45,240 nucleotides of DNA from a virus. The notes below the pieces were generated by a model. That model saw only the letters and a list, made by a program, of their open reading frames with translations, had not been told where the DNA came from and made no database searches. The DNA lies in the IMG/VR virus record IMGVR_UViG_3300048115_000638, positions 1 through 45,240 of that record; one strand, written 5' to 3'. Made by a program: the position numbers and the translations under genes. Positions 862 through 36,768 of this stretch are shown piece by piece. The stretch's first letter is position 1. The number at the start of each line of letters is the position of its first letter.

Positions 862-869
862 TATAAATA
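862..869 (+). promoter_or_regulatory. Late promoter box TATAAATA for gp25
   Basis: Perfect late consensus, 8 nt before the gp25 ATG. It is embedded in GAACGTTATAAATAA (856-870), the same 15 bases found at 5565-5579 ahead of the gp8-like gene. There is no Shine-Dalgarno between box and ATG. Confidence 0.8.
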
Positions 870-877
870 AGAATATA

Positions 878-1312
878 ATGATAAGATCAGATTTTAACAT
901 TGACGAAAAAACGCCCTTTAATACCGCTAGGTCGAAGTTATATTCTGACATACCTTTAGCATTTACAGTTCATCCTAACACTAAAGATATAAGACCAATA
1001 ACTGACGTTAGTGCAATAAGACAAGCTGTAAAAGTTTTAGTTCTTTCCAATTTTTCCGATAGGCCTTTTCATCCCGAGCTTGGAGGAAACGTAACAAGAT
1101 ATCTATTTGAAAACGCAAATAAGTTTACAGCTGTTGCAATGAGAGATGAAGTGCTTCGAATACTTCGTAAGAATGAACCTCGCATAAAAAACACAAAAGT
1201 TCAGATTGCATTAAATGAAGATGAAAATAGATTAATGGTTACAATAGCATTTACAATAAATACATCAAACCTTAACACAGAGGTTTCTTTTTACCTCGAC
1301 AGAATAAGATAA
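878..1312 (+). CDS. gp25: Baseplate wedge protein gp25 (GPW/gp25 family)
   Basis: 144 residues against 132 in T4. Gp25 is the small lysozyme-related but non-enzymatic wedge protein that helps nucleate the tail sheath at the baseplate. The family signature is present: a run starting PITDVSAIRQAVKVLVLS (about 47-64), then RPFHPELGGNVTRYLFE (about 69-85) with the conserved F-x-P-x-x-G, and a C-terminal beta segment. It opens the plus-strand baseplate operon and is followed after 1 nt by gp6, the normal partner in T4-like phages. The start lies 8 nt after a late promoter box with no ribosome binding site; no better downstream ATG precedes the conserved part. Confidence 0.93.
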   Translation: MIRSDFNIDEKTPFNTARSKLYSDIPLAFTVHPNTKDIRPITDVSAIRQAVKVLVLSNFSDRPFHPELGGNVTRYLFENANKFTAVAMRDEVLRILRKNEPRIKNTKVQIALNEDENRLMVTIAFTINTSNLNTEVSFYLDRIR

Positions 1313-1313
1313 A

Positions 1314-3134
1314 ATGGCACTTAAACAATTCAACATTACAGAATTAGACTTTGATAAAATCAAAGGCGCAATTAAAGAATATTATAAGAGGACTGATTCC
1401 CCCTTTAAAGATTTTGATTTTGAAGGTTCTGGTTTGAATCTAATACTCGATGTTCTTGCCTATAACACACATTATAACTCAATTCTTGCTCACCTTGCAG
1501 CAAATGAAAGTTTTATTTCTTCAGCACAGCTAAGAAAAAATGTTGTTGCACGAGCTAAAACACTTGGTTATATTCCTCATGGCATTACTGCGTCTAATAC
1601 AGAAATAACTTTAACTAATGTAGACTCAAGCATTTTATCAATTCCTAAAGGTACAATATTTACGAGTTCAGATACGTTAAATGGTACAACATACTCATTT
1701 ATTAATGTTAATGAAATATCTAATCCAACTAAACCATTTCAAATTTATCAAGGTTCATTAAAAACAAGACAATATATTTTTGATAGCTCAAGTGATAATA
1801 TAAAATTTGAAATACCAGATAAAAATGTTGATATTTCACAATTGGCTGTTACCGCATTCGATAATGCCAATACAACAAATAAAGAAACTTATTTAAGATT
1901 CTCAGAATTAGCAGGATTAGACGAAAATTCTCTTGTATATTTTATCAACGAAAATCCAAATGGTAAATATGAAATATCTTTTGGTGATAATATTTTAGGC
2001 AAAAAGCCAAACGCTGCTAGTGTGATTGAAATAACATATCTAATTTCGGCTGGATCAGACGCTAATGGATTATCTGTATTTACTACCTCTGATCCCTTAT
2101 TTGATAGCGTAGCTAAACCTACGATTACACCTTCTGCATCAACAGGCGGTGGAGGTGATAAAGAATCGATTGAAAGTATACGTGCGAACGCTCCTCTTGG
2201 ATTCTTAGCACAAAACAGAGCTGTAACAGTTGATGATTATAAATCAATCATACGTAATAACATTAACGTTAGTGCGATTTCAGTTTGGGGTGGAGAAGAT
2301 AACAATCCTCCCGAATATGGAAGAGTATTTTTATCGATTAAACCTCAAAACGGTTTAACACTTTCAGAATCTGATAAAGATTTCTTACTTCCTATTCTAG
2401 ATAAAAAAGGAATTCTAACTGTTAAGCCAAAATTTGTAGATCCAGAATTTGTGTATCTTTACTTTGATTTTTTTGCAAAATATAATTCAAATTTAACCAA
2501 CTTAAGCGAAGCAGGTGTTTCAGATCTTATAAGAAGAGGATTAGCTGAATTTAACACCGCGTACTTAGCCGACTTTGATGGTGTCTTTAGATATTCTCAG
2601 TTTTTGGCATTTATTGTGAATAAAGACCCCTCGATATTAAGTGCATTTGCTAGAGTTTATGCTTATAAGAAATTTACCGCACAGACACTTTTAAGAGATG
2701 CATATAAAATTAATTTTAATTTTGCATTAGAAGAACCTGAAGATACAACAAAAAGTTTAATTAGTTCAACTCCGTTCTTAATCAATAGTACAAATCATTA
2801 TTTTGCAGATGAACCTTCAACTATAGAGAATATTAGAAGTATTTACATTTATAAAGTAGATAATTTAAGTGGATTAAACGTAATGACACATCGTAACATA
2901 GGTACTGTAAATGTTGCAACAGGTGAAGTTATAATTAATTTCTTTGATATTGACATTAACACAGAAATTAAAATATTTGTAAGACCCGCCTCAAATGATA
3001 TCGCACCAGTGCGTAATCAGATTATTGAAATCGATAATGGAGGTCATACACTAATCGAATCTGAAGTTGATACAATCGCAATATCGGGTTCTATAGGTGC
3101 GATTGATTATAACACAATAGCAAGAGAAGAATAA
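1314..3134 (+). CDS. gp6: Baseplate wedge protein gp6
   Basis: 606 residues (T4: 660). Gp6 forms the inner dodecameric ring of the baseplate and holds the wedges together. The N-terminus carries the family pattern: KQFNITELDFDKIKGAIKEY, then GSGLNLILDVLAYNTHYN (about 39-56), an ANESF motif and ARAKTLGYIPHG. The central region with QNRAVTVDDYKSIIRN (about 301-316) is the baseplate J-like segment shared with gp6/gpJ proteins. It begins 1 nt after gp25 and its TAA shares an A with the next gene's ATG (TAATG), indicating translational coupling. No unusual truncation is seen. Confidence 0.93.
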   Translation: MALKQFNITELDFDKIKGAIKEYYKRTDSPFKDFDFEGSGLNLILDVLAYNTHYNSILAHLAANESFISSAQLRKNVVARAKTLGYIPHGITASNTEITLTNVDSSILSIPKGTIFTSSDTLNGTTYSFINVNEISNPTKPFQIYQGSLKTRQYIFDSSSDNIKFEIPDKNVDISQLAVTAFDNANTTNKETYLRFSELAGLDENSLVYFINENPNGKYEISFGDNILGKKPNAASVIEITYLISAGSDANGLSVFTTSDPLFDSVAKPTITPSASTGGGGDKESIESIRANAPLGFLAQNRAVTVDDYKSIIRNNINVSAISVWGGEDNNPPEYGRVFLSIKPQNGLTLSESDKDFLLPILDKKGILTVKPKFVDPEFVYLYFDFFAKYNSNLTNLSEAGVSDLIRRGLAEFNTAYLADFDGVFRYSQFLAFIVNKDPSILSAFARVYAYKKFTAQTLLRDAYKINFNFALEEPEDTTKSLISSTPFLINSTNHYFADEPSTIENIRSIYIYKVDNLSGLNVMTHRNIGTVNVATGEVIINFFDIDINTEIKIFVRPASNDIAPVRNQIIEIDNGGHTLIESEVDTIAISGSIGAIDYNTIAREE

Positions 3135-5557
3135 TGCACGAAGCATCAGCAAATACGAAACCTTTAAATTACGAAAGAGAAAAAGTAAGAGAGCTTTATC
3201 CTCAATATTTGAGAGAAGGTGCTGCTAATATCATTTCTTTCCTTGAAGAATACTATGAGTATTTAAATCAAGATAGTGGGCCTTCGTATGAATTAAGACA
3301 TATCACAATTGAAAACGATATTGATGAAACGTCTGAAAAATATTTAGATGCTATTCAAGGTGAGATTGCAAAGATCGTTCCTAATTCAAGTGTTATAGAT
3401 AGAAATACTTTATATAAGAGAATAGTACATTATTATAAAATTAAAGGAACACCAGAGAGTGTTGAGATATTTTTCAAATTATTTTTTGATGCAGCTGCAG
3501 AATTATATTTTCCTGGCAATGATTTATTTAAATTGTCTGCACAAGAAAATGGCCAATTGTCTCATACTAAAAAAATACAAGATAGTTTATTTTGGCAAGA
3601 TTTTAGTTATCAAATAGCTACAACAGTTTCGAGTAAAGATTGGGAAGGCGCGTTTAAAAGAATAGTTCATCCGGCCGGAATGAAATTTTTCAGTTTATTA
3701 TTAATTGACGTTTTAATTAAAAATAGATGGGAGGTGTTTGAATCATACTCGCCCTCAGCTGAAAATCCGGAAAGTTGGTATGAAGCGTTGGTTCCTCCAT
3801 CAAAAAGAATAACAAATTTTTCTGATGACGGTTATCACACACCGCGTTATCAGCCTGGTTGGTTAGAATCAACACAAGCGCTATTCGTAATAGTACTACT
3901 CGATATGATTGGAGAAGATCCGATAGTCGATCCAGCGCGAAATGGTTTTACACGTATTGCACAAAGATCTGCTAACAATCCTACTAAAACTATTACGCGA
4001 CAAACTACAAATGATTTTGAAGTTACTGCAGGATATAAACTTAGCGATATGTTACCTCGAGGTGATCTCGTTGGATTTCCTTTAATGCCTCAGATCAAAA
4101 GTGGTGAAACCATTAAATGTAAAATGGATGTTATTTCTGAAAACTATATTGCGCCTTCGATTGGTTTATTGCGAAACAGAGAAGATAGCGCAAAAGAAAA
4201 AAATCAAATTTCGTTCGAACCTTTGTATAACATACCTTCTGCTGGAAGTCCTTTATTCGCGTTACAACCTAATGTAAACTTTCCTTTATCGACCGCAAGT
4301 ATTGCAGCCGGAGGTGCTGAAACAATTTTTTATCCTGCAGAAAGTTCACCAACCATTGATGTTTCAGTTAGTCCTGGAGCCACATCTGAGCTTGGTAAAT
4401 TTAGAATAACAACAAATGTTACAGCACCTTCTGATAAAAAATTTAGATCAGTTGTTAATTACATACCAACAACTGGACCGTTAGGAACTTTACCAAGTTT
4501 AGGTACTTATAGGTTAAGTGGTAAATGTAGAGTTGTGGCGAGTGACACCACTGTTACAGGTGCTACAGCAAGTGTAAGTTTACAGCAACCTAGAAATGCG
4601 AGCACTGGAGCTATTGATACTACAAGTCCAATGAGTAGTCCTGTTCAACCTTATGAAACTACACAGCATTTTTCAACTACCTCAAATGATTTTGTTGAAT
4701 TTACTGTGTTTCTTACTATTGGAAGTTCTAGTGTACCAAATACAATTAACGTAGAATTTGCTGGCGAATGCATTGATAGCGCACAATCAGGAAGTGTTAT
4801 AGTAGAATTTAAAGAAATAAAAATTGTTAAAAATCCTTCAGAAAGGCCTAATTTAATTCATAATGCAAGTGAAATATTTAGAAGTAATGTAGTATCTGCC
4901 CCGGGTGGTTTAACTGGTGTTAATACTATAACGAGTGGTACTCCATTTGAGTTTACTTTAACATCAACAGATGATAAAAATCGTTTCATTGGATTTATTT
5001 TTACTGATGGAGGTTCTTACCTTGGTGGTTTACCATCGTATCGTGTGTTAAACTTCGAAATTCTTGAGTATAATGGAAAACCTTACAATGCTAAAAGAGG
5101 TATTATTCGACAACTTGAATTTATTTCAGAACTTGAATTACAATCTTCAACATATACTTTATCAACAAATACTAACGATTATTTAAGTGGCGTCTTTGGA
5201 AGTCATAATCCTGGTTTCTGGAGTGACGAAAGATTCTTAAATGAAAATGGTTTATTAGCTACACCTATTGAAGCTATGATTGTTTCTCTTGAAGAACAAA
5301 TAGAAAATTTAAATTTTGTTAGACCGAATCTTTCAGGAGTTTATAGCGTTCAAACGGGCGTAGAATTTACTGTTGGAAGTTTAACAGTTGGTCAAGAATA
5401 TATGATAACAGACTTAGGAACTACACCTCAAGCAGATTGGAATACTATAGCAGGAACAACGGGTGTAACTTATATTATAGGAGATAAATTTACAGCAGCC
5501 TCAAACACAGGAACAGGCAATGGAACAGCAATTGATTTTAGATTACATGATATTTAA
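3134..5557 (+). CDS. Large baseplate-associated protein in the gp7 position
   Basis: 807 residues. The N-terminal 190 residues are alpha-rich and contain a segment common in marine T4-like baseplate proteins: LYKRIVHYYKIKGTPESVEI followed by AELYFPGNDLF (about 96-140). The middle and C-terminal parts are Ser/Thr/Gly-rich and beta-like. The last ~65 residues form a small domain (LTVGQEYMITDLGTT, then GDKFTAASNTGTGNGTA) of a kind that recurs at the ends of marine phage tail proteins. Lying between gp6 and a gp8-like gene, it occupies the place of T4 gene 7 (1032 aa), but I cannot show direct similarity to T4 gp7. Start ATG overlaps the gp6 stop. It could also be a baseplate-fibre adaptor. Confidence 0.65.
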   Translation: MHEASANTKPLNYEREKVRELYPQYLREGAANIISFLEEYYEYLNQDSGPSYELRHITIENDIDETSEKYLDAIQGEIAKIVPNSSVIDRNTLYKRIVHYYKIKGTPESVEIFFKLFFDAAAELYFPGNDLFKLSAQENGQLSHTKKIQDSLFWQDFSYQIATTVSSKDWEGAFKRIVHPAGMKFFSLLLIDVLIKNRWEVFESYSPSAENPESWYEALVPPSKRITNFSDDGYHTPRYQPGWLESTQALFVIVLLDMIGEDPIVDPARNGFTRIAQRSANNPTKTITRQTTNDFEVTAGYKLSDMLPRGDLVGFPLMPQIKSGETIKCKMDVISENYIAPSIGLLRNREDSAKEKNQISFEPLYNIPSAGSPLFALQPNVNFPLSTASIAAGGAETIFYPAESSPTIDVSVSPGATSELGKFRITTNVTAPSDKKFRSVVNYIPTTGPLGTLPSLGTYRLSGKCRVVASDTTVTGATASVSLQQPRNASTGAIDTTSPMSSPVQPYETTQHFSTTSNDFVEFTVFLTIGSSSVPNTINVEFAGECIDSAQSGSVIVEFKEIKIVKNPSERPNLIHNASEIFRSNVVSAPGGLTGVNTITSGTPFEFTLTSTDDKNRFIGFIFTDGGSYLGGLPSYRVLNFEILEYNGKPYNAKRGIIRQLEFISELELQSSTYTLSTNTNDYLSGVFGSHNPGFWSDERFLNENGLLATPIEAMIVSLEEQIENLNFVRPNLSGVYSVQTGVEFTVGSLTVGQEYMITDLGTTPQADWNTIAGTTGVTYIIGDKFTAASNTGTGNGTAIDFRLHDI

Positions 5558-5570
5558 TCGTTGCGAACGT

Positions 5571-5578
5571 TATAAATA
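5571..5578 (+). promoter_or_regulatory. Late promoter box TATAAATA for the gp8-like gene
   Basis: Perfect box in the 49-nt gap, with 28 nt between it and the ATG. A 15-base context GAACGTTATAAATAA is identical to that at the gp25 promoter. A small inverted repeat CGTT-GCG-AACG (5559-5569) lies just upstream. Confidence 0.75.
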
Positions 5579-5606
5579 AATATAAATTAATTAAGTAGAT
5601 ACTATT

Positions 5607-7178
5607 ATGGCAGCAATTATTACAGATGATTTTCGTAGAAACCAAGCGAGAAATTTGATGAACGACATTAAAGCGGCGTCAGCGCTTACTAATGCTAGTG
5701 GTCAAGCTGATGGCTCGAGCCCGTATTTTAGAGAAGTAGACACATATGCTATTGGCATTGGAAAATCTGACGCTTGGAAAAATGATTCAAGCAATAATGA
5801 TGAAAACAATGATAGCTTTGTTGTACCAGTTCCAATTGGAGCAAAATATGAAAATAGAGATATTATTAATAACATGTTTTCATTAAGTGAAATTCCTACT
5901 AATGGAGTTAAACAAGTTATTCCAAAAAATCCATGGACAAGTGGAAGAAAATATAAAGTTTACGATCCTAATGACAACGATCTTTATTATGTATCCGGAG
6001 ATTTTTATCCTTGTTACGTAACGCATAACAATAACATTTATATTTGTCTTTCAAATACTGCAGCTGCTGACTCTGATAATACTGGAACTACTCCTGTAGC
6101 ATCAACACAATCACCTTCTGCAGGTGCACAAGGTATTTCAGTTGAAAATGATGGTTATGTATGGGCACACGTTCAAGCGATTGATACGAGTGCAAATGCT
6201 AAATTTATCACAGGACAATTTGTACCAGTCGATGATGCTGGCGCTACTTCATCTACGCAAGATGGTCTTTTAACACACATATCAATTACAGATGGAGGAA
6301 GTGGATATACGAGTGCTCCAACAGTTACGTTATTTTTAAGAGATGACGCAGATCCAGATAGTCCATTAACAAAACACACCACAGCAAAAGCAATTGTTGA
6401 AAGTGGTGTAGTGACAAAAATTCAACTACAAGGTTCAGGTGCAGCATCAACTGATGATGGCGAAAGTTCATATTGGTCAAGTCCAATTGAAGACGTAAGA
6501 AATGCAACTGTAGTTATAGCCGCGCCAACTTCTGGTAGAACAGCAACAGGTGTAGCAGGTGTAGCATTTGCAAGAGGATTTTCAGCAAGACCATTAGATG
6601 TTCTCCCCACTTGGTTTTTAAATATTACCACAGACTTTGATGGAGAAGAAGATGGCGATGCAGCGATTTTACCATTTAGACAAGTATCATTATTGAAAAA
6701 CTTTTCTAGAATTGATGATGGAGAAACACCTACTACAACAAATAAACTTGATGGACTAAAATATTTCCAAGTTGCTTCTCCTACACCTTCAGCATTAGCT
6801 TCTTTAAATCCAGGCGATGTAATTTTTCAAGAAACTGGTAACGCTAACGGTGAACCTAAAATGTATTTTGATAAATGGGATTCACCAAATTCAAGAGTTT
6901 ACTATCATCAAAATACAAACAATGACGTTAACTTTATTCAACCAAATGATGCATCTGGTGCTACACAGCCGCTTAAAGTGGCAGCTACTTCAGGTTCATT
7001 AGATGTAGGGGATACATTAGGAGCAGGCGTAGTTACTAGTTCTCATGCTGATGCAGAATATGCTCACGATGATGGTAACGCTGAGTATAATGGTGAAGTT
7101 ATTTTCTTTGAAAACCGTAGACCATTTAATCGTGCTACTAGTCAAAAGGAAGAAGTCAAATTGATTATACAACTTTAA
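5607..7178 (+). CDS. gp8: Baseplate wedge protein, gp8-like
   Basis: 523 residues; T4 gp8 is 334. Gp8 is the wedge component that joins gp7 and gp10 in the outer baseplate. Support comes from the N-terminal half: an ITDDFRRNQARNLMNDIKAA start, AIGIGKSDAWKND (about 48-60), a YYVSGDFYPCYVTHNNNIYICLSN segment (described as YPCYVTHNNNIYICLSN, about 135-151) and an ENDGYVWAHV motif (about 180-189) characteristic of gp8 relatives. The central part carries an extra beta module with ITDGGSGYTSAPTVTLFL (about 226-243) that also occurs in the next gene. The assignment rests on these motifs and on order gp25-gp6-x-this gene. Confidence 0.72.
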   Translation: MAAIITDDFRRNQARNLMNDIKAASALTNASGQADGSSPYFREVDTYAIGIGKSDAWKNDSSNNDENNDSFVVPVPIGAKYENRDIINNMFSLSEIPTNGVKQVIPKNPWTSGRKYKVYDPNDNDLYYVSGDFYPCYVTHNNNIYICLSNTAAADSDNTGTTPVASTQSPSAGAQGISVENDGYVWAHVQAIDTSANAKFITGQFVPVDDAGATSSTQDGLLTHISITDGGSGYTSAPTVTLFLRDDADPDSPLTKHTTAKAIVESGVVTKIQLQGSGAASTDDGESSYWSSPIEDVRNATVVIAAPTSGRTATGVAGVAFARGFSARPLDVLPTWFLNITTDFDGEEDGDAAILPFRQVSLLKNFSRIDDGETPTTTNKLDGLKYFQVASPTPSALASLNPGDVIFQETGNANGEPKMYFDKWDSPNSRVYYHQNTNNDVNFIQPNDASGATQPLKVAATSGSLDVGDTLGAGVVTSSHADAEYAHDDGNAEYNGEVIFFENRRPFNRATSQKEEVKLIIQL

Positions 7179-7193
7179 AGATAGATACATAAT

Positions 7194-12926: not shown

Positions 12927-13114
12927 TGACAGAACCATACTATAGAGATCCAGTTTCGGGAGCACTTATTAATAATAATAGTAGTGCTTATAATGCTAGA
13001 GTTTCACAAAAGAATAACACAAAAAAACTTAAAGCACAAGAAGTAGAGATAACAGATTTAAAAACACAACTTGCTGATTTAAAAGCAATAGTTGATACAC
13101 TAACAGGTGAATAA
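12926..13114 (+). CDS. Small coiled-coil protein
   Basis: 62 residues, unrecognised. The N-terminal 30 residues (YYRDPVSGALINNNSSAYNA) look flexible; the C-terminal 28 form a heptad-like helix (AQEVEITDLKTQLADLKAIV), suggesting an oligomerising coiled coil. Its ATG overlaps the stop of the DUF4815-like gene in TAATG, so it is likely made in a fixed ratio with it by coupled re-initiation. Small proteins of this kind occur at the same place in marine T4-like phages. A role as a trimerising or adaptor piece of the baseplate or fibres is inference only. Confidence 0.7.
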   Translation: MTEPYYRDPVSGALINNNSSAYNARVSQKNNTKKLKAQEVEITDLKTQLADLKAIVDTLTGE

Positions 13115-13117
13115 ATA
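13110..13117 (+). promoter_or_regulatory. Variant late promoter box AATAAATA
   Basis: One mismatch from the late consensus. It overlaps the end of the 62-aa gene and ends exactly 5 nt before the ATG at 13123, the same spacing as at three perfect boxes in this window. The mismatch makes it less certain. Confidence 0.5.
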
Positions 13118-13122
13118 AAACT

Positions 13123-13965
13123 ATGTCAAATACAACAAATTTCGATGATTTCAAAAATGTAGATGTTTCAACTGCAACAGGAGCATCTGAGGCCGGAGTT
13201 GTATTGACAGATGATTTTGGCAAATGGCGCAAAAAGTCTAATGGTGTAATTGAAAAAGTAAAGGCTTTAGATACAACAGTAACTGATTTAGATGCTAATG
13301 CGGCAATCATCAATAAAACATCATATCAAAAATTTAATAAAGCTATTGGAAGCACTGTTGTTAATTTAACAGATCCTGAAGAAATTGACTTAGCAGCCGG
13401 AAATACTTTTGTTATAACACTAACACAAAGCGTTTCAACTTTAGAATTTTTAAATTCTGGTACTTCAACACAAGGTGGAAGATTTACATTCATTATTAAA
13501 TCCACAGGATCGTATACAATTACATGGCCTAATTCTGGTACTCAAGAAGTTATTTTTGCTGATGGTAGCGGAGCATTAACATCAGGTACAGCAACCGATA
13601 TAATGAATGTATATAATGATGGAACGAAATTATATGCTACATTAAGCGCATACATCGATCAACAAATTGCAGCATCGCAACAAGGTGCAGCGGATATGCA
13701 TTATTTAAATGTAATGAACACCGCAGGATTTAATGATAACGATCACACTAATAGTGGTTTAACTGGAACTGAAATAAATAACGCAAGAATTCTATTAGGT
13801 TCGAGTGTTAAAGCCGGACATACTGTTATGGTTAGATTTAGTCAAAGATATTCGTATAGATGGGGTAATGGTACATCATACGCAACTAGAAGAGCGTTTC
13901 AAGTATTTGTAAGTGGTGGAACATATCCAAATAACGTTTGGTACGATCAAGGAGCATTTGTATAA
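13123..13965 (+). CDS. Virion/tail-fibre-like protein
   Basis: 280 residues, not assigned to a named T4 gene. The N-terminal part (about 1-65) looks helical. The middle is a beta-rich domain with GRFTFIIKSTGSYTITWPN (about 121-139) and TDIMNVYNDGTKLYATLSAY, a pattern common in phage fibre and receptor-facing proteins. The C-terminal 90 residues (RFSQRYSYRWGNGTSYATRR, then VFVSGGTYPNNVWYD) are rich in Tyr, Trp and Gly, as in fibre tips. It sits among structural genes and is followed after 3 nt by the next gene. Fibre association is inferred from composition and location. Confidence 0.65.
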   Translation: MSNTTNFDDFKNVDVSTATGASEAGVVLTDDFGKWRKKSNGVIEKVKALDTTVTDLDANAAIINKTSYQKFNKAIGSTVVNLTDPEEIDLAAGNTFVITLTQSVSTLEFLNSGTSTQGGRFTFIIKSTGSYTITWPNSGTQEVIFADGSGALTSGTATDIMNVYNDGTKLYATLSAYIDQQIAASQQGAADMHYLNVMNTAGFNDNDHTNSGLTGTEINNARILLGSSVKAGHTVMVRFSQRYSYRWGNGTSYATRRAFQVFVSGGTYPNNVWYDQGAFV

Positions 13966-13968
13966 TTT

Positions 13969-14595: not shown

Positions 14596-14598
14596 ATA

Positions 14599-15680: not shown

Positions 15681-15681
15681 T

Positions 15682-16599
15682 ATGGCTACTTATTCAAATC
15701 TTTTTATAGACCAAGGATCGGACTTTTCGTTTTCTATTGATTTACAAGGTGTTAGTTTAAGCACAAACTATAGTGCGAGAGGTCAAATGCGTAAATCTTA
15801 TAATTCTGTTTCTCATACAGATTTTACCACTTCAGTTGATACAACAAATAATGAGTTAGACATATCACTCGACGCTATAACTACACAAGGTTTAAAGGCT
15901 GGAAGATATGTTTACGATGTAGAAATTGTAAATTCCACAACAGGAGAAGTAACTCGTGTATTAGAAGGTCAAGTTGAAGTTACACCGACTGTGACTTCAA
16001 GTGCGTTTGATGACATTGCAAGTGAAGAAGCTATTACTACATTTACTACACAAAACTTAGCTATACCAACTGATTTATCTGGTGACAATAGCATGAATAT
16101 ACGTGATTCATACGCGTTTATCGAATTGAACAACAATCTATATCATCAAAATGGATTTACAACTCAACTTACTGTGACAGGTAAATATTTTCAGATTCAA
16201 AATCCTACTACTTTTACTTTAAAACTATTCTTAACAAATGAAGGATTTGTAAATAAAACAAGTACAACGTCATTTGGTACTTCGGTTGATGGATTTCCTT
16301 CGACAGCAACAATAACATCACAAGGCGCATTTAATGTTGCATTACAATTAAGTGCTGATACTGTTGGTACGTTCAAATATTTAGGTATATGTGCAGAAGA
16401 TGCTAACCCCGGCGATCAAGTTTTAAGACCATTTGGTAAATTCCAAGTTGAAGATTTAGCTATACTTCCTTCATTATCATATCATCCAGATTCAGCTATT
16501 AATGGAACAGTAGATTTTAAAGTAGGCGCAGAAATTATCGATCCTCAACACGTAGGAAAATTTAGTATATCAAATAAAAGTGCAATCTTTGCTAATTAA
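15682..16599 (+). CDS. Virion structural protein with common phage N-terminal beta domain
   Basis: 305 residues. Residues 1-110 follow a pattern common to tail proteins of many marine phages: LFIDQGSDFSFSIDLQG, ARGQMRKSY, then LKAGRYVYDVEIVNSTTG and VLEGQVEVTPTVTSS. The remaining ~190 residues are beta-rich (for example QIQNPTTFTLKLFLTNEGF) with a C-terminal IDPQHVGKFSISNKSAIF. No enzymatic motif is seen. It lies directly upstream of the giant fibre (11 nt gap), suggesting that it connects or assembles the fibre, which is inference. Confidence 0.7.
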   Translation: MATYSNLFIDQGSDFSFSIDLQGVSLSTNYSARGQMRKSYNSVSHTDFTTSVDTTNNELDISLDAITTQGLKAGRYVYDVEIVNSTTGEVTRVLEGQVEVTPTVTSSAFDDIASEEAITTFTTQNLAIPTDLSGDNSMNIRDSYAFIELNNNLYHQNGFTTQLTVTGKYFQIQNPTTFTLKLFLTNEGFVNKTSTTSFGTSVDGFPSTATITSQGAFNVALQLSADTVGTFKYLGICAEDANPGDQVLRPFGKFQVEDLAILPSLSYHPDSAINGTVDFKVGAEIIDPQHVGKFSISNKSAIFAN

Positions 16600-16610
16600 T
16601 ATAAAAAACT

Positions 16611-22301: not shown

Positions 22302-22307
22302 AATAGG

Positions 22308-22315
22308 TATAAATA
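22308..22315 (+). promoter_or_regulatory. Late promoter box TATAAATA for the gp13-gp17 operon
   Basis: Perfect box in the 20-nt gap after the tail fibre, 6 nt before the gp13 ATG. No other perfect late box was seen between it and gp18, so gp13-gp14-gp15-gp16-gp17 probably share this transcript. Confidence 0.8.
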
Positions 22316-22321
22316 AGTAAT

Positions 22322-23074
22322 ATGGCAAAGGTTACATCAAGAGAAACATTAAAAAATTATTGTCTAAGAGCTTTAGGCGATCCGGTCATCGAAATCAATG
22401 TCGATGATGACCAAGTAGAAGATCGTGTAGATGAAGCTTTACAATTTTATCAAGAATATCATGGCGATGCTGTTGTAAGAAATTTGCGTAAACACCAAGT
22501 AACATCTACAGACGTATCAAACGGTTATATCGAAGTTCCGAATACCGCGAACATATTTTCTATTAATAACGTATTTAACACAAATAATTCAAATACAGCA
22601 TCAATGTTTTCGGTGGATTATCAAATACACTTAAATGATATTTTTGATTTGAATGGAACTCACGGTGGCATAATTAATTACGAATTGACAAAACAATATA
22701 TGTCATTGATTGATAGAAATATAAATGGTGCATATGAAATGATTGAATGGTCACGCCATAAAAATAGAGTCAACTTTCATTCAGACACACTTAAAAATTT
22801 AGAAGGTCAATTTGTCGTATTTGACGCTTATGAAGCAATAGATCCCGAAACATTTAGAGATGTTTATAACGATATGTTTTTGAAAAGATATACAACTGCT
22901 TTGATTAAACGCCAATGGGGATTAAATTTAATTAAATTCGAAGGTATGACAATGCCAGGTGGAGTTACATTGAATGGTAGACAAATATTTGACGATGCTA
23001 AAGAAGAAATACAACAATTAGAAGAACAAATGCAATTAAAGCATGAAATGCCACCATTAGACTTTATCGGTTAA
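22322..23074 (+). CDS. gp13: Neck protein gp13
   Basis: 250 residues (T4: 309). Gp13 forms the neck ring, with gp14, that closes the filled head and prepares it for tail joining. Diagnostic segments include SRETLKNYCLRALGDPVIEI (about 6-25), VEDRVDEALQFYQEYH and, near the end, KRQWGLNLIKFEGMTMPGGV (about 196-215) followed by LNGRQIFDDAKEEI and a PPLDFIG terminus, all typical of marine T4-like gp13. It starts 6 nt after a late promoter box without a Shine-Dalgarno. Gp14 follows after 6 nt. Confidence 0.93.
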   Translation: MAKVTSRETLKNYCLRALGDPVIEINVDDDQVEDRVDEALQFYQEYHGDAVVRNLRKHQVTSTDVSNGYIEVPNTANIFSINNVFNTNNSNTASMFSVDYQIHLNDIFDLNGTHGGIINYELTKQYMSLIDRNINGAYEMIEWSRHKNRVNFHSDTLKNLEGQFVVFDAYEAIDPETFRDVYNDMFLKRYTTALIKRQWGLNLIKFEGMTMPGGVTLNGRQIFDDAKEEIQQLEEQMQLKHEMPPLDFIG

Positions 23075-23080
23075 TATGTT

Positions 23081-24703: not shown

Positions 24704-24704
24704 T

Positions 24705-27493: not shown

Positions 27494-27529
27494 ATTTCGT
27501 TTATTATAAATAGAAATATTGAAATTTAG
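27490..27529 (+). promoter_or_regulatory. Late promoter TATAAATA of gp18 inside a perfect 9-bp inverted repeat
   Basis: The late box is at 27505-27512. It is flanked by CTAAATTTC (27490-27498, containing the gp17 stop) and GAAATTTAG (27521-27529), a perfect inverted repeat with a 22-nt loop. The leader to the gp18 ATG is about 65 nt and carries AAAGGA, the longest leader of any late unit here. The dyad could be an operator or a hairpin formed only in read-through RNA from gp17. Confidence 0.7.
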
Positions 27530-27582
27530 ACTTATTATGATAAACTTAATATTAACAAATTATTTGAAAGGATATAACTAAC

Positions 27583-29955
27583 ATGGGATTCCAAGTATCA
27601 CCTGGCGTTCAAGTCAAAGAAGTTGACTTGACAAACGTGATTCCTGCAGTATCAACTTCGATTGGTGCATTTGCAGGTCACTTCAGCTGGGGCCCTGGTG
27701 GAGAATCGAAACTCGTTTCTTCCGAAAAGGAATTATCAGCAGCTTATGGTGTACCAACCGAAGATGCCGATAATTATGTTCCTTTTTTACAGGCTTCTAG
27801 CTTTTTAAAATATACGACGGCACTTCGAGTTTCGAGAGCACTACCAAGTGATTCTAGAAATTCAGTGGGTTCACCTTACGGAGAAGCAATAACAGCATAC
27901 TCTTCAGCAATTGGCAATTCAGAAGCATTCGATGGTATAACATTCGGTGCAACTGGATCTAAAGAAACAAATGGTCAAGTAATTATTGGCCGCTATCCCG
28001 GAAAACTCGGTGATAGTATTAAAGTTCTTATGGCCAATCAGCAAGTGTTGAATACTGTTTTAGAAAACGCAACTGGTGTTGTTGATGGTGGAACTACATC
28101 TTCAACTACAGTAGTATTGCAAAGTGTTCAAAACCAAATTGTAAATGGAATGGTTGTTTCAGGTACCAGTATCTCTGGTTCACCTACAGTAACAAACGTT
28201 TCTGGAAATACAATAACACTAAGCGTGGCTCAAACAATTGCTAATGCAGAAACATTAACATTCACTTCAGTGGCTGAAGCGGGTAAATTTTCACTATCTG
28301 ATTTAGATTCAGTAGTAAGTGGACCAGCGACTACAACAGCATGGGCAGAAAATAATGTTCTAGACACACAATCAGCGGGAACAAATACATACGACGAATT
28401 ACACGTTGTAGTAATTGATGAAGATGGTTTAATAACTGGTGTTAAGAATACTGTTCTCGAAGTTTTTGAAGGATTATCTTTATATAGAGATGCTCTTAAA
28501 AATGGAGGAAGTAATTATTACAAAACTGTTATCAATCGCGATTCCGAGTGGATCTACATTAACGAAACTGCCTTTAAAGACTTTTTCTCTGTAGGTACAG
28601 ATAATCAAGGTGCAAAACCAGGAGATATAGGTGTTGGAGGAACAAAATTCTTTGACAATAATATTGTTAATTCAAGAGCTTCTGAATTTGATTCATACGA
28701 TGTTACTAATATAACAGGTACACTCGTTAATGGAACATATACAGTAGTTGATGGTTTATCATATAGCGGTAACGCAGTTACATCACACACTAACGGAAAT
28801 AGTGGCGGACTTGGTGTAGGTGCTTCTTTAGAAATTACATTAAGTGGAACAGCTGGTTCAGTTGGTGCAGCAGTACTTACAGTTTCAGACGCTAATGGTG
28901 TAAATACTGGAGGATTTGGATATAAGGTTGACGATGAAATTCGAATTCCTGAGCAAATTCTTGGAAGTTCCGGAACTGGATATGTTGCATTTGACGTATC
29001 ACACATCGACTCTGCACCATCTGACGGTGTAGCAACAACAGAAGCTCTATTTGACTTCACACTTCAAAAAGGTGAAAATGGAACTGCTGGACATGGTAAC
29101 ATTACAACAGCGCTTGACGTATTCAATAACGCAGAAGAAGTTGATATCAACTTAGTGTTTGCGGAAGATTACGGTACAGGTACAGATGTTGGTAATAAAA
29201 TTGTTCAACTTTGTGGTACTACACGTAAAGACTGCGTAGGGTTTTTATCACCTAAGGTAAGTTCAAATAGTAGTTCAGAAGTTAAAGCAGATTTATCAGC
29301 TTACAATAGTTCTTACGTTGTAATGGATAGTGGAGCAGTTTATGTTTATAACAAATATAAAGATGAATACATTTATATTCCTGCTTCAGGACACATTGCT
29401 GGTCTTTGTGCACGAACTGATGATACTAACGATCCTTGGTTCTCACCTGCAGGTTACAATAGAGGAAATCTTTTAGGTGTTACTAAACTTAAATGGAACC
29501 CAACAAAAACAGATCGCGACGAGTTATATAAAGCTGGCATTAATCCAATTATTGCACAGCCTGGTCAAGGAATTTTATTATTCGGCGACAAAACAGCTCA
29601 AAGTAAACCATCTGCATTTGATAGAATTAACGTACGTAGATTGTTCATTGTTTTAGAAAAAGCAATTTCAACAGCGTCTAAATTCCAATTATTCGAATTG
29701 AATGATGAGTTTACACGGGCAATGTTCCGTAACATGACTGAACCATTCCTAAGGGATGTTAAAGGTCGACGTGGTATTACTGACTTCTTAGTAGTTTGTG
29801 ATGAAACAAACAATACTGGTGAAGTTATTGATACTAATCGTTTTGTTGCAGATATCTACATTAAGCCTGCACGTTCTATTAATTTCATCACTCTCAACTT
29901 TGTTGCCACTCGTACTGGCGTAGAGTTCTCAGAGATTGTTGGTACAGGTAACTAA
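27583..29955 (+). CDS. gp18: Contractile tail sheath protein gp18
   Basis: 790 residues (T4: 659). The N-terminus FQVSPGVQVKEVDLTNVIPA (about 3-22), STSIGAFAGHFSWGPGG and the C-terminal domain with KTDRDELYKAGINPII, QGILLFGDKTAQ, RINVRRLFIVLEKAI and FVATRTGVEFSEIVG are canonical. Two insertions explain the extra length: about residues 165-228 (VSGTSISGSPTVTNVSGNT, an Ig-like beta module) and about 372-470 (Gly/Ser-rich with GGLGVGASLEITLSG and GFGYKVDDEIRIP). These probably decorate the outer surface of the tail. Translation starts from AAAGGA 10 nt upstream, one of the few strong Shine-Dalgarno sites among late genes here, consistent with high output. Confidence 0.95.
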   Translation: MGFQVSPGVQVKEVDLTNVIPAVSTSIGAFAGHFSWGPGGESKLVSSEKELSAAYGVPTEDADNYVPFLQASSFLKYTTALRVSRALPSDSRNSVGSPYGEAITAYSSAIGNSEAFDGITFGATGSKETNGQVIIGRYPGKLGDSIKVLMANQQVLNTVLENATGVVDGGTTSSTTVVLQSVQNQIVNGMVVSGTSISGSPTVTNVSGNTITLSVAQTIANAETLTFTSVAEAGKFSLSDLDSVVSGPATTTAWAENNVLDTQSAGTNTYDELHVVVIDEDGLITGVKNTVLEVFEGLSLYRDALKNGGSNYYKTVINRDSEWIYINETAFKDFFSVGTDNQGAKPGDIGVGGTKFFDNNIVNSRASEFDSYDVTNITGTLVNGTYTVVDGLSYSGNAVTSHTNGNSGGLGVGASLEITLSGTAGSVGAAVLTVSDANGVNTGGFGYKVDDEIRIPEQILGSSGTGYVAFDVSHIDSAPSDGVATTEALFDFTLQKGENGTAGHGNITTALDVFNNAEEVDINLVFAEDYGTGTDVGNKIVQLCGTTRKDCVGFLSPKVSSNSSSEVKADLSAYNSSYVVMDSGAVYVYNKYKDEYIYIPASGHIAGLCARTDDTNDPWFSPAGYNRGNLLGVTKLKWNPTKTDRDELYKAGINPIIAQPGQGILLFGDKTAQSKPSAFDRINVRRLFIVLEKAISTASKFQLFELNDEFTRAMFRNMTEPFLRDVKGRRGITDFLVVCDETNNTGEVIDTNRFVADIYIKPARSINFITLNFVATRTGVEFSEIVGTGN

Positions 29956-29963
29956 TATAAATA
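29956..29963 (+). promoter_or_regulatory. Late promoter box TATAAATA for gp19
   Basis: Perfect box directly after the gp18 stop with 22 nt to the gp19 ATG; the leader contains AAAGGA 11 nt before the ATG. Confidence 0.8.
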
Positions 29964-29985
29964 ATTAGAAAGGAACATAATAAAA

Positions 29986-30510: not shown

Positions 30511-30535
30511 GGGTTTTAATTAATAAGTTAAGTGT

Positions 30536-30566
30536 CTTTAGTGGAGGTCTAATCCCTCCACTAAAG
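30536..30566 (+). terminator. Hairpin terminator after gp19
   Basis: A perfect 12-bp stem, CTTTAGTGGAGG (30536-30547) with CCTCCACTAAAG (30555-30566), and a 7-nt loop. The following bases (CTCTTATAAATA) give only a poor U tract, so it may be a terminator or an RNA-stabilising 3' hairpin. It ends 4 nt before the gp20 late promoter box. Confidence 0.8.
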
Positions 30567-30570
30567 CTCT

Positions 30571-30578
30571 TATAAATA
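30571..30578 (+). promoter_or_regulatory. Late promoter box TATAAATA for gp20
   Basis: Perfect box ending 5 nt before the gp20 ATG, with no room for a ribosome binding site. By T4 late-promoter geometry transcription would start at or next to the A of the ATG. Confidence 0.8.
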
Positions 30579-30583
30579 ACATT

Positions 30584-32098
30584 ATGGAATTATTCGGATA
30601 CGAAATTAGTAAAAAGGTTTCATCGAAACAAACGGAAACAGAGAAAAAAATTATTTCTCCAATTCCTAAGATTAACGATGAAGGAGGAGCGACTGTCACA
30701 GTTGGTGGTGGTTACTATGGAAGTTATATAGATTTAGATAATAGTGATACTATTTCAGATCATGAACTCATTATAAAATATAGACAAGCAGCACAGCAAC
30801 CTGAGTGTGATGCTGCTATCAATGATATTTTAGATGGTGCAATTGCTTCAGGCGATGTATCGGCACCAGTTAGTTTACATCTTGAAGATTTAGATCAACC
30901 GGATAATGTTAAAAAAGAAATTATAAAAGAATTTAATAAAGTATTAGAGCTTTATAAATTCAATCACCGAGCTTCGGACTATTTTAGAAATTGGTATATT
31001 GATGGAAGATTATATTTTCACATTATGATCGATCCTGCTAATCCTCAAAGAGGTATAGTTGAATTAAGACCAATCGAACCTACTGATATTAGTAGAGTTA
31101 AAGAAGTACAGAAAATCACAGATCCTAAGACAAAAGTAGAATATGAAAAAGTGGTTGATGAATACTACATATATTCTAAAAACGCAGATACAAACATCGA
31201 AGGAAAAAGTAGTGGAATTAAATTTGCTAAAGACGCAATCATACAATGTAATTCAGGATTGTTTGACGCTACTAAAATAAGAACAATTAGTCACTTACAT
31301 AAAGCTTTAAAGCTTGTAAATCAATTGCGTTATATGGAAGACTCATTGGTCGTTTATAGAACATCAAGAGCGCCGGAACGTAGAATTTTTTATATTGATG
31401 TTGGTAATTTACCAAAAGGTAAAGCAGAAGAATACGTACAACAAGTCGTATCTAGATATCGTAATAAAATGGTATATGACGCATCGACTGGAGAAATTTC
31501 AGATGATAGACGTCACATGTCAATGTTAGAAGATTTTTATTTGCCACGAAGAGAAGGTGGTAGAGGAACTGAAATTACTACATTAAGTGGTGGAGATAAT
31601 TTAGGCCAAATCGATGACGTAGTATTTTTCCAGAAAAAACTATATAGAGCATTAAACGTTCCAGTTTCAAGATTAGAACAAGAATCTACATTTACTATTG
31701 GTAGATCTACTGAAATTTCTAGAGAAGAATTAAAATTTCAGAAGTTTATCGATAGATTACGTAAAAAATTCTCATTCATGATTATTGACGCATTGCGTGT
31801 TCAATTAATATTGAAAGGAATTATTACTGAATCGGATTGGCAGGATATCGAAGAATCAGTTAATGTTGACTTTTTAGAAGATAACTATTTTGCCGAATTA
31901 AAAGAATTTGAAATTTTAAGAGAAAGATTAGAAATGGCTCAACAATTTGAAGACTTAGTTGGCAAATATTTTTCTAATAAATATATTCGTCAAGTTATTC
32001 TTAAACAATCTGAAGAAGATATGATGAAATTAAACGATGAAATGGAAGCAGAAAAAGATGCTGCTGGCGAAGAAGAAGAAGATGATTTAGACTTTTAA
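30584..32098 (+). CDS. gp20: Portal protein gp20
   Basis: 504 residues (T4: 524). It forms the dodecameric portal at one capsid vertex, initiates head assembly and docks the gp17 motor. The strongly conserved central-to-C-terminal block is present: VYRTSRAPERRIFYIDVGNL (about 261-280), KMVYDASTGEISDDRRHMSM (about 300-319), LPRREGGRGTEITTLSGGDN, then QKKLYRALNVPVSRL and STEISREELKFQKFI. The C-terminus is highly acidic (EAEKDAAGEEEEDDLDF). It has its own late promoter adjoining the ATG and is isolated upstream by the gp19 hairpin. Confidence 0.96.
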   Translation: MELFGYEISKKVSSKQTETEKKIISPIPKINDEGGATVTVGGGYYGSYIDLDNSDTISDHELIIKYRQAAQQPECDAAINDILDGAIASGDVSAPVSLHLEDLDQPDNVKKEIIKEFNKVLELYKFNHRASDYFRNWYIDGRLYFHIMIDPANPQRGIVELRPIEPTDISRVKEVQKITDPKTKVEYEKVVDEYYIYSKNADTNIEGKSSGIKFAKDAIIQCNSGLFDATKIRTISHLHKALKLVNQLRYMEDSLVVYRTSRAPERRIFYIDVGNLPKGKAEEYVQQVVSRYRNKMVYDASTGEISDDRRHMSMLEDFYLPRREGGRGTEITTLSGGDNLGQIDDVVFFQKKLYRALNVPVSRLEQESTFTIGRSTEISREELKFQKFIDRLRKKFSFMIIDALRVQLILKGIITESDWQDIEESVNVDFLEDNYFAELKEFEILRERLEMAQQFEDLVGKYFSNKYIRQVILKQSEEDMMKLNDEMEAEKDAAGEEEEDDLDF

Positions 32099-32124
32099 AT
32101 AGTCTTTTTTAAAAACTAAAATAT

Positions 32125-32132
32125 TATAAATA
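32125..32132 (+). promoter_or_regulatory. Late promoter box TATAAATA for the prohead gene group
   Basis: Perfect box ending 5 nt before the ATG of the 54-aa gene at 32138; context ATTATAAATAGAATTATG closely matches that at 35804-35821. Confidence 0.8.
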
Positions 32133-32137
32133 GAATT

Positions 32138-32302
32138 ATGAGTGAAAAAACAAATAAGTTATTTAACAATATTGTTAAAAATGATAAAGTAGGTTCTGCA
32201 AAAGCTTTTGGAGAAACTATGAAAGAAAAATTAGATGATGCTCTTGAAATACGTAAGGTAGGACTAACATCAGAAATTTTTAATAAAGCAAAAGAAAAAT
32301 GA
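32138..32302 (+). CDS. Small prohead core protein, gp67/gp68 position
   Basis: 54 residues: starts MSEKTNKLFNNIVKNDKVGS, continues with KAFGETMKEKLDDALEIRKV and ends SEIFNKAKEK. It is short, charged and helical, like the small internal prohead proteins (gp67, gp68) that T4 encodes between gp20 and gp21. The DALEIRKVGLTSEIF stretch is the kind of motif seen in small marine-phage prohead proteins (xEAIExRKxxLAxxxF). The gene is real: a perfect late promoter lies 5 nt upstream and its TGA overlaps the gp21 ATG (ATGA). Which T4 protein it corresponds to is uncertain; gp68 is a little more likely by motif and by direct adjacency to gp21. Confidence 0.75.
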   Translation: MSEKTNKLFNNIVKNDKVGSAKAFGETMKEKLDDALEIRKVGLTSEIFNKAKEK

Positions 32303-32943
32303 AGCTAATAACAGAACATTTAGAAAAACTTGATTACATCACCGAAGCAAAAAAGGACGGCAGTAAAGACGTTTATATCGAAGGTGTATTCATGCAAGCG
32401 GAAAAGCAAAACCGCAATAATAGAATTTATCCGAAAGATGTTTTAGCTGAGGCTACAAAAAAATATGTTTCGGAACAGGTTAGAACTGGAAGAGCCGTTG
32501 GTGAATTAAATCACCCTGAAGGGCCACAGATTAACCTTGATAAAGTTTCACACAGAATTACCGATCTCAAATGGGAAGGTAATGATGTTGTTGGAAGAGC
32601 GCTTATCTTAGATACACCTATGGGTAAAATCGTGAAAGGACTCGTCGAAGGCGGGTGCAAGTTAGGCGTTTCGAGTCGTGGTATGGGTACTGTTGAACAG
32701 AAAGAAGGTAAAACATATGTTAAGGACGATTTTGTTCTTGCTACTGTTGACATTGTCCAAGATCCGAGTGCACCATCTGCTTTCGTTGAAGGCATCATGG
32801 AAGGTGTAGAATGGATTTGGGAGAATGGAATTCTGAAACCTCAACAAATTGAAGAATATGAGACTGAAATTAAAAAGGTTCCTATGGGTCGCATTAGCGA
32901 AGCCCAAGAAAGAATCTTCAGTGATTTCCTCTCCAAACTCTAA
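32299..32943 (+). CDS. gp21: Prohead maturation protease gp21
   Basis: 214 residues (T4: 212). This serine protease of the herpesvirus-assemblin type cleaves scaffold and capsid proteins before DNA packaging. Motifs: GVFMQAEKQNRNNRIYP (about 29-45), the catalytic-His segment GELNHPEGP (H72), the nucleophile segment KLGVSSRGMG (S126, alternatively S125) and VDIVQDPSAPSAF (about 150-162) with D151 as the likely third member. It is coupled to the small prohead gene by ATGA. Its substrates gp22 and gp23 follow, and gp23 carries a matching LTE site. Confidence 0.95.
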   Translation: MKLITEHLEKLDYITEAKKDGSKDVYIEGVFMQAEKQNRNNRIYPKDVLAEATKKYVSEQVRTGRAVGELNHPEGPQINLDKVSHRITDLKWEGNDVVGRALILDTPMGKIVKGLVEGGCKLGVSSRGMGTVEQKEGKTYVKDDFVLATVDIVQDPSAPSAFVEGIMEGVEWIWENGILKPQQIEEYETEIKKVPMGRISEAQERIFSDFLSKL

Positions 32944-32972
32944 TTCAAAAAAATATAAGGAAACTTAATTAT

Positions 32973-34427: not shown

Positions 34428-34469
34428 ACCCAAAACAATAATTCTAACAACTAGAAGGAAATTTAAAAA

Positions 34470-35741
34470 ATGCTAAACGCAGAAAAAGAACTACAAAAGT
34501 GGGCACCAGTATTAGAACATGCTGATGCTCCAACTATCACAGATAGTTACAAGAAAGCTGTTACAGCAAAACTTTTGGAGAATACCGAAAAGGCTCTTCA
34601 AGAGGAACGCGCACACAGCAGCTTCTCTTTGACAGAAGATGCAGCTACTAACACAGCATCTGCAACTTACTCAGATCCAGTATTAATCTCACTTGTACGC
34701 CGTGCAATGCCTCAGCTTATCGCTTATGATGTTGCTGGTGTTCAGCCAATGTCTGGTCCTACAGGTTTAATCTTCGCAATGAAAGCTCGCTATAGCGATA
34801 CTTCAACTGTCGAAGGTCAAATCAATACTAACGACACAGAAGCGTTGTTCGATGATATCGACACAGCATTCTCTGGCGGAGGTACACACGGTTCATCAGA
34901 CGATCCATTCAATGCTTCTTATGGCGCTGGTAATGGTCTACAAAGTCAAGCTGACGGTGGTACATCAGAAACTGGTAACATCGACAAAGAAATGGGCTTC
35001 ACAATTGAGAAAGCAACTGTGGCTGCTCGAACACGTCAGTTAAAAGCAGAATACTCAATGGAGCTTGCACAAGACCTTAAAGCAATTCACGGTCTTGACG
35101 CTGAGTCTGAGTTGGCTAACATCCTATCAACAGAAATCCTAGCTGAAATTAACCAAGAAGTTATTCGTACGATTAACAACTCTGCTAAAATCGGTGAAGA
35201 TGGTCCTGTTGGAGCTGATGGTATCTTCGACTTAGTCGCTGATGCAGATGGCCGCTGGGCAGTTGAGAAATTCCAGTCTCTTGCTTATCAGCTTGAAGTA
35301 CAAGCAAATAAGATCGCTACTGAAACACGTCGTGGAAAAGGTAACTTCGTTATCTGCTCACCTAACGTAGCATCTGCTCTTGCTTCTACTGGAGCTCTTA
35401 AGTTTGGTGGAGATGGTGCAATCAACGCCGATGCAATGGGTAACACATTTGCTGGTACACTTAACGGACGCCTTAAAGTCTACATCGATGCATACGCATC
35501 AGTTGATTATGCAACTGTAGGTTATAAGGGTTCTAATGCATATGACGCAGGACTTTACTACTGCCCATACGTTCCATTAACTATGGTACGTGCAGTTGGT
35601 GAAAATAGCTTCCAGCCGAAGATTGCATTCAAGACACGTTATGGTATCAAAGCGAATCCATTCACATCTTTGAGTGCTGATGCTAACTCTTACTTCCGTA
35701 AGACTAAGATCACAAACCTTAACGTAGGTGGCGTATCCTAA
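34470..35741 (+). CDS. gp23: Major capsid protein gp23
   Basis: 423 residues (T4: 521, marine relatives shorter). HK97-fold shell protein. The N-terminal helical prosequence ends in SFSLTEDAAT; the LTE at 54-56 fits the gp21 cleavage rule, predicting a mature start at D57. The body has SDPVLISLVRRAMPQLIAYD (about 68-87), GVQPMSGPTGLIFAMKARY (about 90-108), FTIEKATVAARTRQLKAEYS and the C-terminal PFTSLSADANSYFRKTKI. AAGGA is 10 nt before the ATG. A strong terminator follows, so gp23 ends its transcript. No gp24-like vertex paralogue follows, as in cyanophages. Confidence 0.97.
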   Translation: MLNAEKELQKWAPVLEHADAPTITDSYKKAVTAKLLENTEKALQEERAHSSFSLTEDAATNTASATYSDPVLISLVRRAMPQLIAYDVAGVQPMSGPTGLIFAMKARYSDTSTVEGQINTNDTEALFDDIDTAFSGGGTHGSSDDPFNASYGAGNGLQSQADGGTSETGNIDKEMGFTIEKATVAARTRQLKAEYSMELAQDLKAIHGLDAESELANILSTEILAEINQEVIRTINNSAKIGEDGPVGADGIFDLVADADGRWAVEKFQSLAYQLEVQANKIATETRRGKGNFVICSPNVASALASTGALKFGGDGAINADAMGNTFAGTLNGRLKVYIDAYASVDYATVGYKGSNAYDAGLYYCPYVPLTMVRAVGENSFQPKIAFKTRYGIKANPFTSLSADANSYFRKTKITNLNVGGVS

Positions 35742-35771
35742 TTAATTAGGAGTTCACAAACCTTTAAAACT

Positions 35772-35802
35772 AAGAGGAGTTCTTCGGAGCTCCTCTTTTT
35801 TT
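35772..35802 (+). terminator. Intrinsic terminator after gp23 with UUCG tetraloop
   Basis: AAGAGGAGTTC (35772-35782), loop TTCG (35783-35786), GAGCTCCTCTT (35787-35797): an 11-bp stem with one G-U pair, closed by the exceptionally stable C(UUCG)G tetraloop and followed by a seven-T run. The next late box begins 4 nt later. Confidence 0.93.
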
Positions 35803-35805
35803 CAT

Positions 35806-35813
35806 TATAAATA
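35806..35813 (+). promoter_or_regulatory. Late promoter box TATAAATA for the second tube-like gene
   Basis: Perfect box, 5 nt before the ATG at 35819, directly abutting the gp23 terminator. No Shine-Dalgarno. Confidence 0.8.
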
Positions 35814-35818
35814 GTATT

Positions 35819-36304
35819 ATGAGTGGTACAAACTTAACAACAAATATTAACATGCTTTCTCCAACTGGATTTAAGCTTACGATTAATAAAGAAAAGTTTG
35901 CGAATACTGAATTCTTTATTACGAGCTTTACTATTCCAGACATTAGCGTTTCACCTATAGAAACACGATATCGTAATTCAATTAATTACGAGGCTGGTGA
36001 GCCACGATCTTTTGGAGACTTATCTTTAAGATTTGCAATCGATGAAGATATGAAAAACTACACAGAAATTTATGATTGGCTTAAATCATGTAGTGAAGAA
36101 GGTTCAGTGAAAGGACAAATAGAACAACATGATATGATTTTGTCTGTGATGTCAAGTCATAACAATATTAACAAACAATTTCAATTTAGAGATGCATTTC
36201 CTACATCATTAAGTGGTGTAGAATTTAATGCTCAATCAACAGATGTTGAATATTTACAAGCAGACGTAACATTTAGATACAACGAATTTAGTATTATTAA
36301 ATAA
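35819..36304 (+). CDS. Tail-tube-fold (gp19-like) virion protein
   Basis: 161 residues. The order of motifs echoes gp19: an opening beta strand (GFKLTINKEKF), an IP turn (FTIPDISVSPIETRYRNS, about 38-55, compare gp19 QLPSSVIGQIDVPYRG), then FGDLSLRFAIDEDMKNYTEI (about 67-86) followed by YDWL, aligning with gp19's FENWTVTIINDGTMDIRNAF-ERW. It is therefore probably a tube paralogue such as a tube initiator or terminator in the baseplate or tail end. Marine T4-like phages keep such a gene after gp23. I cannot assign it to a specific T4 gene (gp3, gp48 and gp54 are alternatives by role). Confidence 0.65.
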   Translation: MSGTNLTTNINMLSPTGFKLTINKEKFANTEFFITSFTIPDISVSPIETRYRNSINYEAGEPRSFGDLSLRFAIDEDMKNYTEIYDWLKSCSEEGSVKGQIEQHDMILSVMSSHNNINKQFQFRDAFPTSLSGVEFNAQSTDVEYLQADVTFRYNEFSIIK

Positions 36305-36305
36305 G

Positions 36306-36313
36306 AATAAATA
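36306..36313 (+). promoter_or_regulatory. Variant late promoter box AATAAATA before uvsY
   Basis: One mismatch from consensus, 8 nt before the uvsY ATG. It could give late expression of the recombination genes uvsY-uvsW, which may also be read from middle or upstream promoters. Confidence 0.4.
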
Positions 36314-36321
36314 ATTATATT

Positions 36322-36768
36322 ATGACACTTGATGAAATTTTGATTATGTGGAAAAAGGACGTCGTTATCGATGACGTATGCCTTGACGAAGAAACTTTAA
36401 AGTCTTCTAAACTACACGCCAAATATCTTGAATTATATTCAATGGCAAAACTCCAACTGAAGAAAAAGGAAATGGAGTTAGACGCTACTAAAAAAGATAA
36501 GTGGCTTTATTATAATGGAAAGATGACGCAGCAAGATATGGATAAACGTAGTTGGAAATACGATCCATTCGATGGTATGACTAAACCATTAAAAAGCGAC
36601 ATGGATATGTATTACGATACTGATGAAGATCTTGTAAAAATAAAAGCACAGATTGATTATCACAAAACAGTAATTGAAACACTTGAAGAAATAATGGGTA
36701 ACATTAGATGGAGGCACACCCACGTCAAGAATATACTTGACTTTAAGAAGTTTACTTCTGGAATGTAA
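36322..36768 (+). CDS. uvsY: Recombination mediator UvsY
   Basis: 148 residues (T4: 137). UvsY loads the UvsX recombinase onto gp32-coated single-stranded DNA. The family pattern is clear: LDEILIMWKKDVVIDD (about 3-18), KLHAKYLELYSMAKLQLKKK (about 30-49), the KWLYYNGKM segment (about 60-68) and the C-terminal MGNIRWRHTHVKNILDFKKF (about 125-144). Lysine-rich helices fit DNA and protein binding. Its stop overlaps the uvsW start (TAATG), coupling the two, as in many T4-like genomes. Confidence 0.94.
   Translation: MTLDEILIMWKKDVVIDDVCLDEETLKSSKLHAKYLELYSMAKLQLKKKEMELDATKKDKWLYYNGKMTQQDMDKRSWKYDPFDGMTKPLKSDMDMYYDTDEDLVKIKAQIDYHKTVIETLEEIMGNIRWRHTHVKNILDFKKFTSGM

Follow-up and report, generated by a model that had tools for sequence, protein, structure and literature searches.

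In a marine relative of phage T4 the promoter box of many late genes lies exactly where the ribosome-binding site should be, which raises the question of whether the messages of these genes begin at the start codon itself. We addressed this question in a 45,240-nucleotide fragment of a marine T4-like phage (34% G+C; viral metagenome record IMGVR_UViG_3300048115_000638), hereafter the window, and in about 260 related viral contigs. The window holds the late cluster from gp25 through gp13-gp23 to uvsY, uvsW, gp55, gp47 and gp46. The original prediction listed eight late promoter boxes ending 5 to 9 nt before a start codon and proposed that a whole class of late virion genes may be translated from leaderless mRNA, with leaders of 0 nt at the 5-nt sites and 1-4 nt elsewhere. 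All eight boxes were confirmed at exactly these positions and spacings. The original prediction missed a ninth short-spacer box before uvsY and did not mention boxes with ordinary leaders before gp8, gp18 and gp19. The features of the window are as follows.

830..837 (-), TATAAATA, 9 nt before the minus-strand fibre ATG at 820, divergent from the gp25 box
862..869 (+), TATAAATA, 8 nt before the gp25 ATG at 878; 5-8 nt in all close relatives
5571..5578 (+), late promoter box 28 nt before the gp8 ATG at 5607
13110..13117 (+), variant box AATAAATA, 5 nt before gene 13123-13965, overlapping the upstream stop codon
15665..15672 (+), TATAAATA, 9 nt before the 305-aa fibre-assembly-like gene 15682-16599; the box lies inside the end of the upstream gene
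22308..22315 (+), TATAAATA, 6 nt before the gp13 (neck) ATG at 22322; 5-6 nt in 7 of 8 close relatives
27505..27512 (+), late promoter box 70 nt before the gp18 ATG at 27583, with a Shine-Dalgarno (SD) sequence
29956..29963 (+), ordinary late promoter 22 nt before the gp19 ATG, followed by an SD (AGAAAGGA)
30536..30566 (+), strong hairpin with a 12-bp stem and without a T run, ending 4 nt before the gp20 box (-19.3 kcal/mol for 30530-30570, z -6.6)
30571..30578 (+), TATAAATA, 5 nt before the gp20 (portal) ATG at 30584; same abutting arrangement in all 34 members of its gp20 branch
32125..32132 (+), TATAAATA, 5 nt before the small prohead gene 32138-32302 (PHROG 1064 prohead, E 0.0016); spacers 5-11 in relatives
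35772..35802 (+), intrinsic terminator (11-bp stem, UUCG loop, T run) ending 3 nt before the next box (-17.4 kcal/mol, z -4.7)
35806..35813 (+), TATAAATA, 5 nt before the gp3-like tail tube/completion gene 35819-36304; exactly 5 nt in 16 of 19 deduplicated close relatives
36306..36313 (+), variant box AATAAATA, 8 nt before the uvsY ATG at 36322; short spacers (mostly 10) in 13 of 14 close relatives
38940..39581 (+), gp55-like late sigma factor, the expected reader of these boxes (PHROG 234, E 9e-54; aligned with five gp55 homologues)

The two back-to-back boxes at 830-869 stand 24 nt apart and drive the minus-strand fibre and gp25, both with short spacers. This divergent arrangement was not seen before gp25 in relatives by the pattern used. 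Within the gp18 leader (27537-27583), an ATG 24 nt after the box opens a short reading frame ahead of the SD and the gp18 start, which might represent a leader peptide or chance.

The raw number of TATAAATA boxes in the window was not unusual (12, against 7.8 +/- 2.9 in shuffled sequences), and two of the boxes (38015 and 8222 minus) lie inside genes and look like chance. Their position, however, is unusual. Among 32 gene starts TATAAATA occurred 7 times at spacer 5-9, while of the 56 same-composition 8-mers the next best occurred twice and 50 never occurred. In the relatives we located starts by homology and removed near-duplicates, which left 916 starts. In the clade, i.e. the group at 58% identity or more, TATAAATA at spacer 5 occurred 35 times and the next best permutation twice. 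Chance in an A/T-rich genome was therefore rejected.

The distance from NATAAATA to a homology-supported start codon showed a sharp peak at 5 nt, which the original prediction had named as a supporting test, fell off over 6-13 nt and stopped below 5 nt. The only apparent 4-nt spacer, in the related contig L128, was rejected because a second, overlapping box gives 8 nt. A purely mechanical scan of 213 loci, not deduplicated, gave 144 sites at 5 nt, 29 at 6, 20 at 7, 20 at 8, 12 at 9 and 24 at 10, against 7 in total at 0-4, with a second mode at 20-22 nt. T4 late boxes are 8 bp long and occupy -13 to -6 (PMC2988020). A 5-nt spacer then puts +1 on the A of ATG and is the shortest that keeps the whole AUG in the RNA, and a floor at that value is what leaderless transcripts predict.

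The bases around the start codon showed the pattern expected at a transcription start. At spacer 5 the base before ATG was T or C in 63 of 63 sites, and at spacer 6 it was T in 20 of 20, compared to 58% pyrimidine for long-spacer genes and 45% for box-less genes (Fisher p 2e-12 and 1e-19 for the 5-nt class). These counts include related sequences, so the p-values overstate the independent evidence, and a T before ATG is also common at some leadered genes (gp22, 12 of 12). At spacers 8-11 the same pyrimidine-A step sits at box+5/+6, and in leadered promoters of the same relatives purine use steps up from 49% to 76% at box+6. Together this would place +1 where T4 does, on the A of ATG for spacer 5 and probably 6. 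The pattern suggests two refinements of leader length: at spacer 6, +1 would slide one base to the A of ATG instead of leaving a 1-nt leader, and at spacers 7-11 a pyrimidine-purine step at box+5/+6 predicts leaders of about 2-6 nt.

Translation signals differed between short-spacer and long-spacer genes. In the clade, SD-like cores occurred in 0 of 68 short-spacer starts, 67% of long-spacer starts and 43% of box-less starts. An SD was found in 95% of gp19 relatives and 64% of those of gp23, while gp13, gp25, the gp3-like gene and the small prohead gene had none. At spacer 5 the start codon was ATG 134 times, GTG once and TTG never, in line with the AUG preference described for leaderless mRNAs (PMC9031893). 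Homologues starting further downstream behind an SD were not found. Orthologous starts coincided, and codon-position bias began at codon 2, so the ATG is the real start.

Over a third of the 5-nt sites appear insulated from upstream transcription. In 24 of 63 5-nt sites an intrinsic terminator ended within 12 nt of the box, against 14 of 169 long-spacer sites (p 3e-7). In the window the gp3-like gene has the full module of 11-bp stem, UUCG loop, T run, box, 5 nt and ATG. Compact terminator-box-ATG modules, many with UUCG or CGAAAG loops, recur before gp20, the gp3-like gene and other genes in many contigs (among them L004, L009, L014, L017, L022, L092 and L117). Upstream transcripts should therefore stop just before the box, leaving the box itself as the main source of mRNA at such sites. 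About 60% of the 5-nt sites lack a terminator recognised by our scan, and read-through mRNA with a long upstream sequence may also exist there, for example at 15682 and 13123, where the box overlaps the previous gene.

On a gp20 tree of 111 sequences all 34 members of one branch had spacers of 5-13 nt and no SD core, whereas all 77 others had long spacers or no box, indicating a single change that was never lost. The sister group of this branch (contigs L047, L049 and L063) has boxes 63-66 nt upstream and no recognisable SD. Adding 13 sequences from bacterial bins and leaving out T4 gave two changes, a second small group having gained the trait independently. This group includes gp20 genes with 5-6 nt spacers on contigs binned as Sphingobacteriales, Synechococcus and Flavobacteriales (L285, L286 and L291), although bin labels are unreliable. 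Host identification through these bins gave conflicting taxa, probably owing to binning errors. Where gp20 starts 6 or 18 nt earlier, the box has moved with it. For the gp3-like gene and gp13 the trait changed 6 and 8 times on quick trees. A phage-encoded ribosomal protein S21 was absent from the clade fragments searched and present in HTVC008M, Mosig and Melnitz, so no link to the trait could be made.

Leaderless or near-leaderless late mRNA is the best explanation of these observations, and we hold it with good confidence, although it rests on sequence only and remains a prediction without a measured 5' end or a known host. In this reading host RNA polymerase with the phage's gp55 starts RNA about 6 bp after the box, so that at spacers of 5-6 nt the mRNA begins with the AUG itself and at 7-11 nt it has a leader of about 2-6 nt. 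The exact +1 is inferred from T4, and initiation can vary by a base or two. The ribosome would then have to start at or next to the 5' end without an SD, and the box would set both +1 and the reading start. The original interpretation is supported, with the further restriction that not all late virion genes are involved, since the high-output genes gp18, gp19, gp22 and gp23 keep SD-type leaders.

An unlikely alternative is that the abutting boxes are active promoters but functional mRNA comes mainly by read-through from upstream, with ribosomes reaching the SD-less start by translational coupling or through an A/U-rich, unstructured standby region that happens to contain the box. Several genes are indeed packed head to tail (15682 starts 1 nt and 13123 starts 8 nt after the upstream stop), and with an SD in only 43% of box-less internal genes non-SD starts are common anyway. 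However, many 5-nt sites directly follow a terminator, and neither coupling nor A/U-richness explains a floor at exactly 5 nt, the preference for TATAAATA over its permutations or the pyrimidine at -1 in 83 of 83 sites. It is very doubtful that initiation in this lineage is displaced relative to T4, with RNA starting within or before the box. Marine gp55 proteins diverge from that of T4 and no start site has been mapped for this lineage, but such a start would not follow from -10-type recognition, and the base steps at box+5/+6 agree with +1 lying where it does in T4. That the ATG merely belongs to an extended late-promoter consensus, as the A/T-rich stretch downstream of T4-type boxes (PMC2988020) might suggest, was rejected because 0 of 169 long-spacer boxes have ATG at box+6, codon-position bias starts at codon 2 and orthologous proteins align from residue 1.

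It is possible, though tentative, that a large lineage of uncultured marine T4-like phages has rewired its late programme into two translation classes on the same sigma factor, with SD-leadered mRNAs for abundant structural proteins and leaderless mRNAs, insulated by a terminator-box-AUG module, for scarce assembly parts. Judging by T4 stoichiometry, the predicted leaderless genes seem to be mostly low-copy parts (portal, neck, gp25, tail terminator) and the SD-leadered ones the abundant parts (gp18, gp19, gp22, gp23), with the small prohead gene as a likely exception. Box placement might then help to set protein dosage, which is an inference, and initiation on 5'-terminal AUGs would become selectively controllable late in infection.

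Late promoters of this type and leaderless mRNAs are both known, but in the open-licence literature searched we found no description of leaderless late mRNAs in T4-like phages, which are among the most abundant viruses in the ocean, or of a switch to them from SD leaders. The Melnitz paper lists late promoters without commenting on spacing in the passages found. Such a switch would show that translation initiation mode is an evolvable setting of single phage genes and would improve start-codon calling in marine phages (box at -13, no SD). T4 late promoters (gp55/gp33/gp45) share with the window the box TATAAATA with A(-13) variants, the lack of a -35 element, the A/T-rich downstream stretch and a gp55 homologue. 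In the 98 kb of T4 examined, however, the shortest box-to-start distance was 12-13 nt and the shortest-spacer examples carried an SD between box and start. In S-PM2 no spacer was below 19 nt and in Syn9 none below 15. Leaderless mRNAs of bacteria and phage (lambda cI, mycobacteria) share with the window a promoter box about 12 bp before the start (PMC3160421), no SD and a strict AUG start. Here the messages would be made by a phage sigma factor, for virion and recombination genes of a T4-like phage, with a terminator often placed directly before the box.

The arrangement also occurs in a cultured phage. Pelagiphage HTVC008M has five exact 5-nt TATAAATA sites in its whole genome, at 6280, 7562, 18916 minus (gp2), 31132 (gp25) and 49760, and all five are annotated gene starts. 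HTVC008M on Pelagibacter HTCC1062 would provide a cultured system for studying leaderless translation in one of the most abundant marine bacteria. In Mosig the gp3-like gene has a box exactly 5 nt before its annotated start. In both phages gp20 and many other late genes still have leaders and SDs. In Melnitz (L266, 25504-25534) the gp3-like gene has a box, 5 nt and an out-of-frame ATG, followed by an SD and the annotated start, which is possibly an intermediate state.
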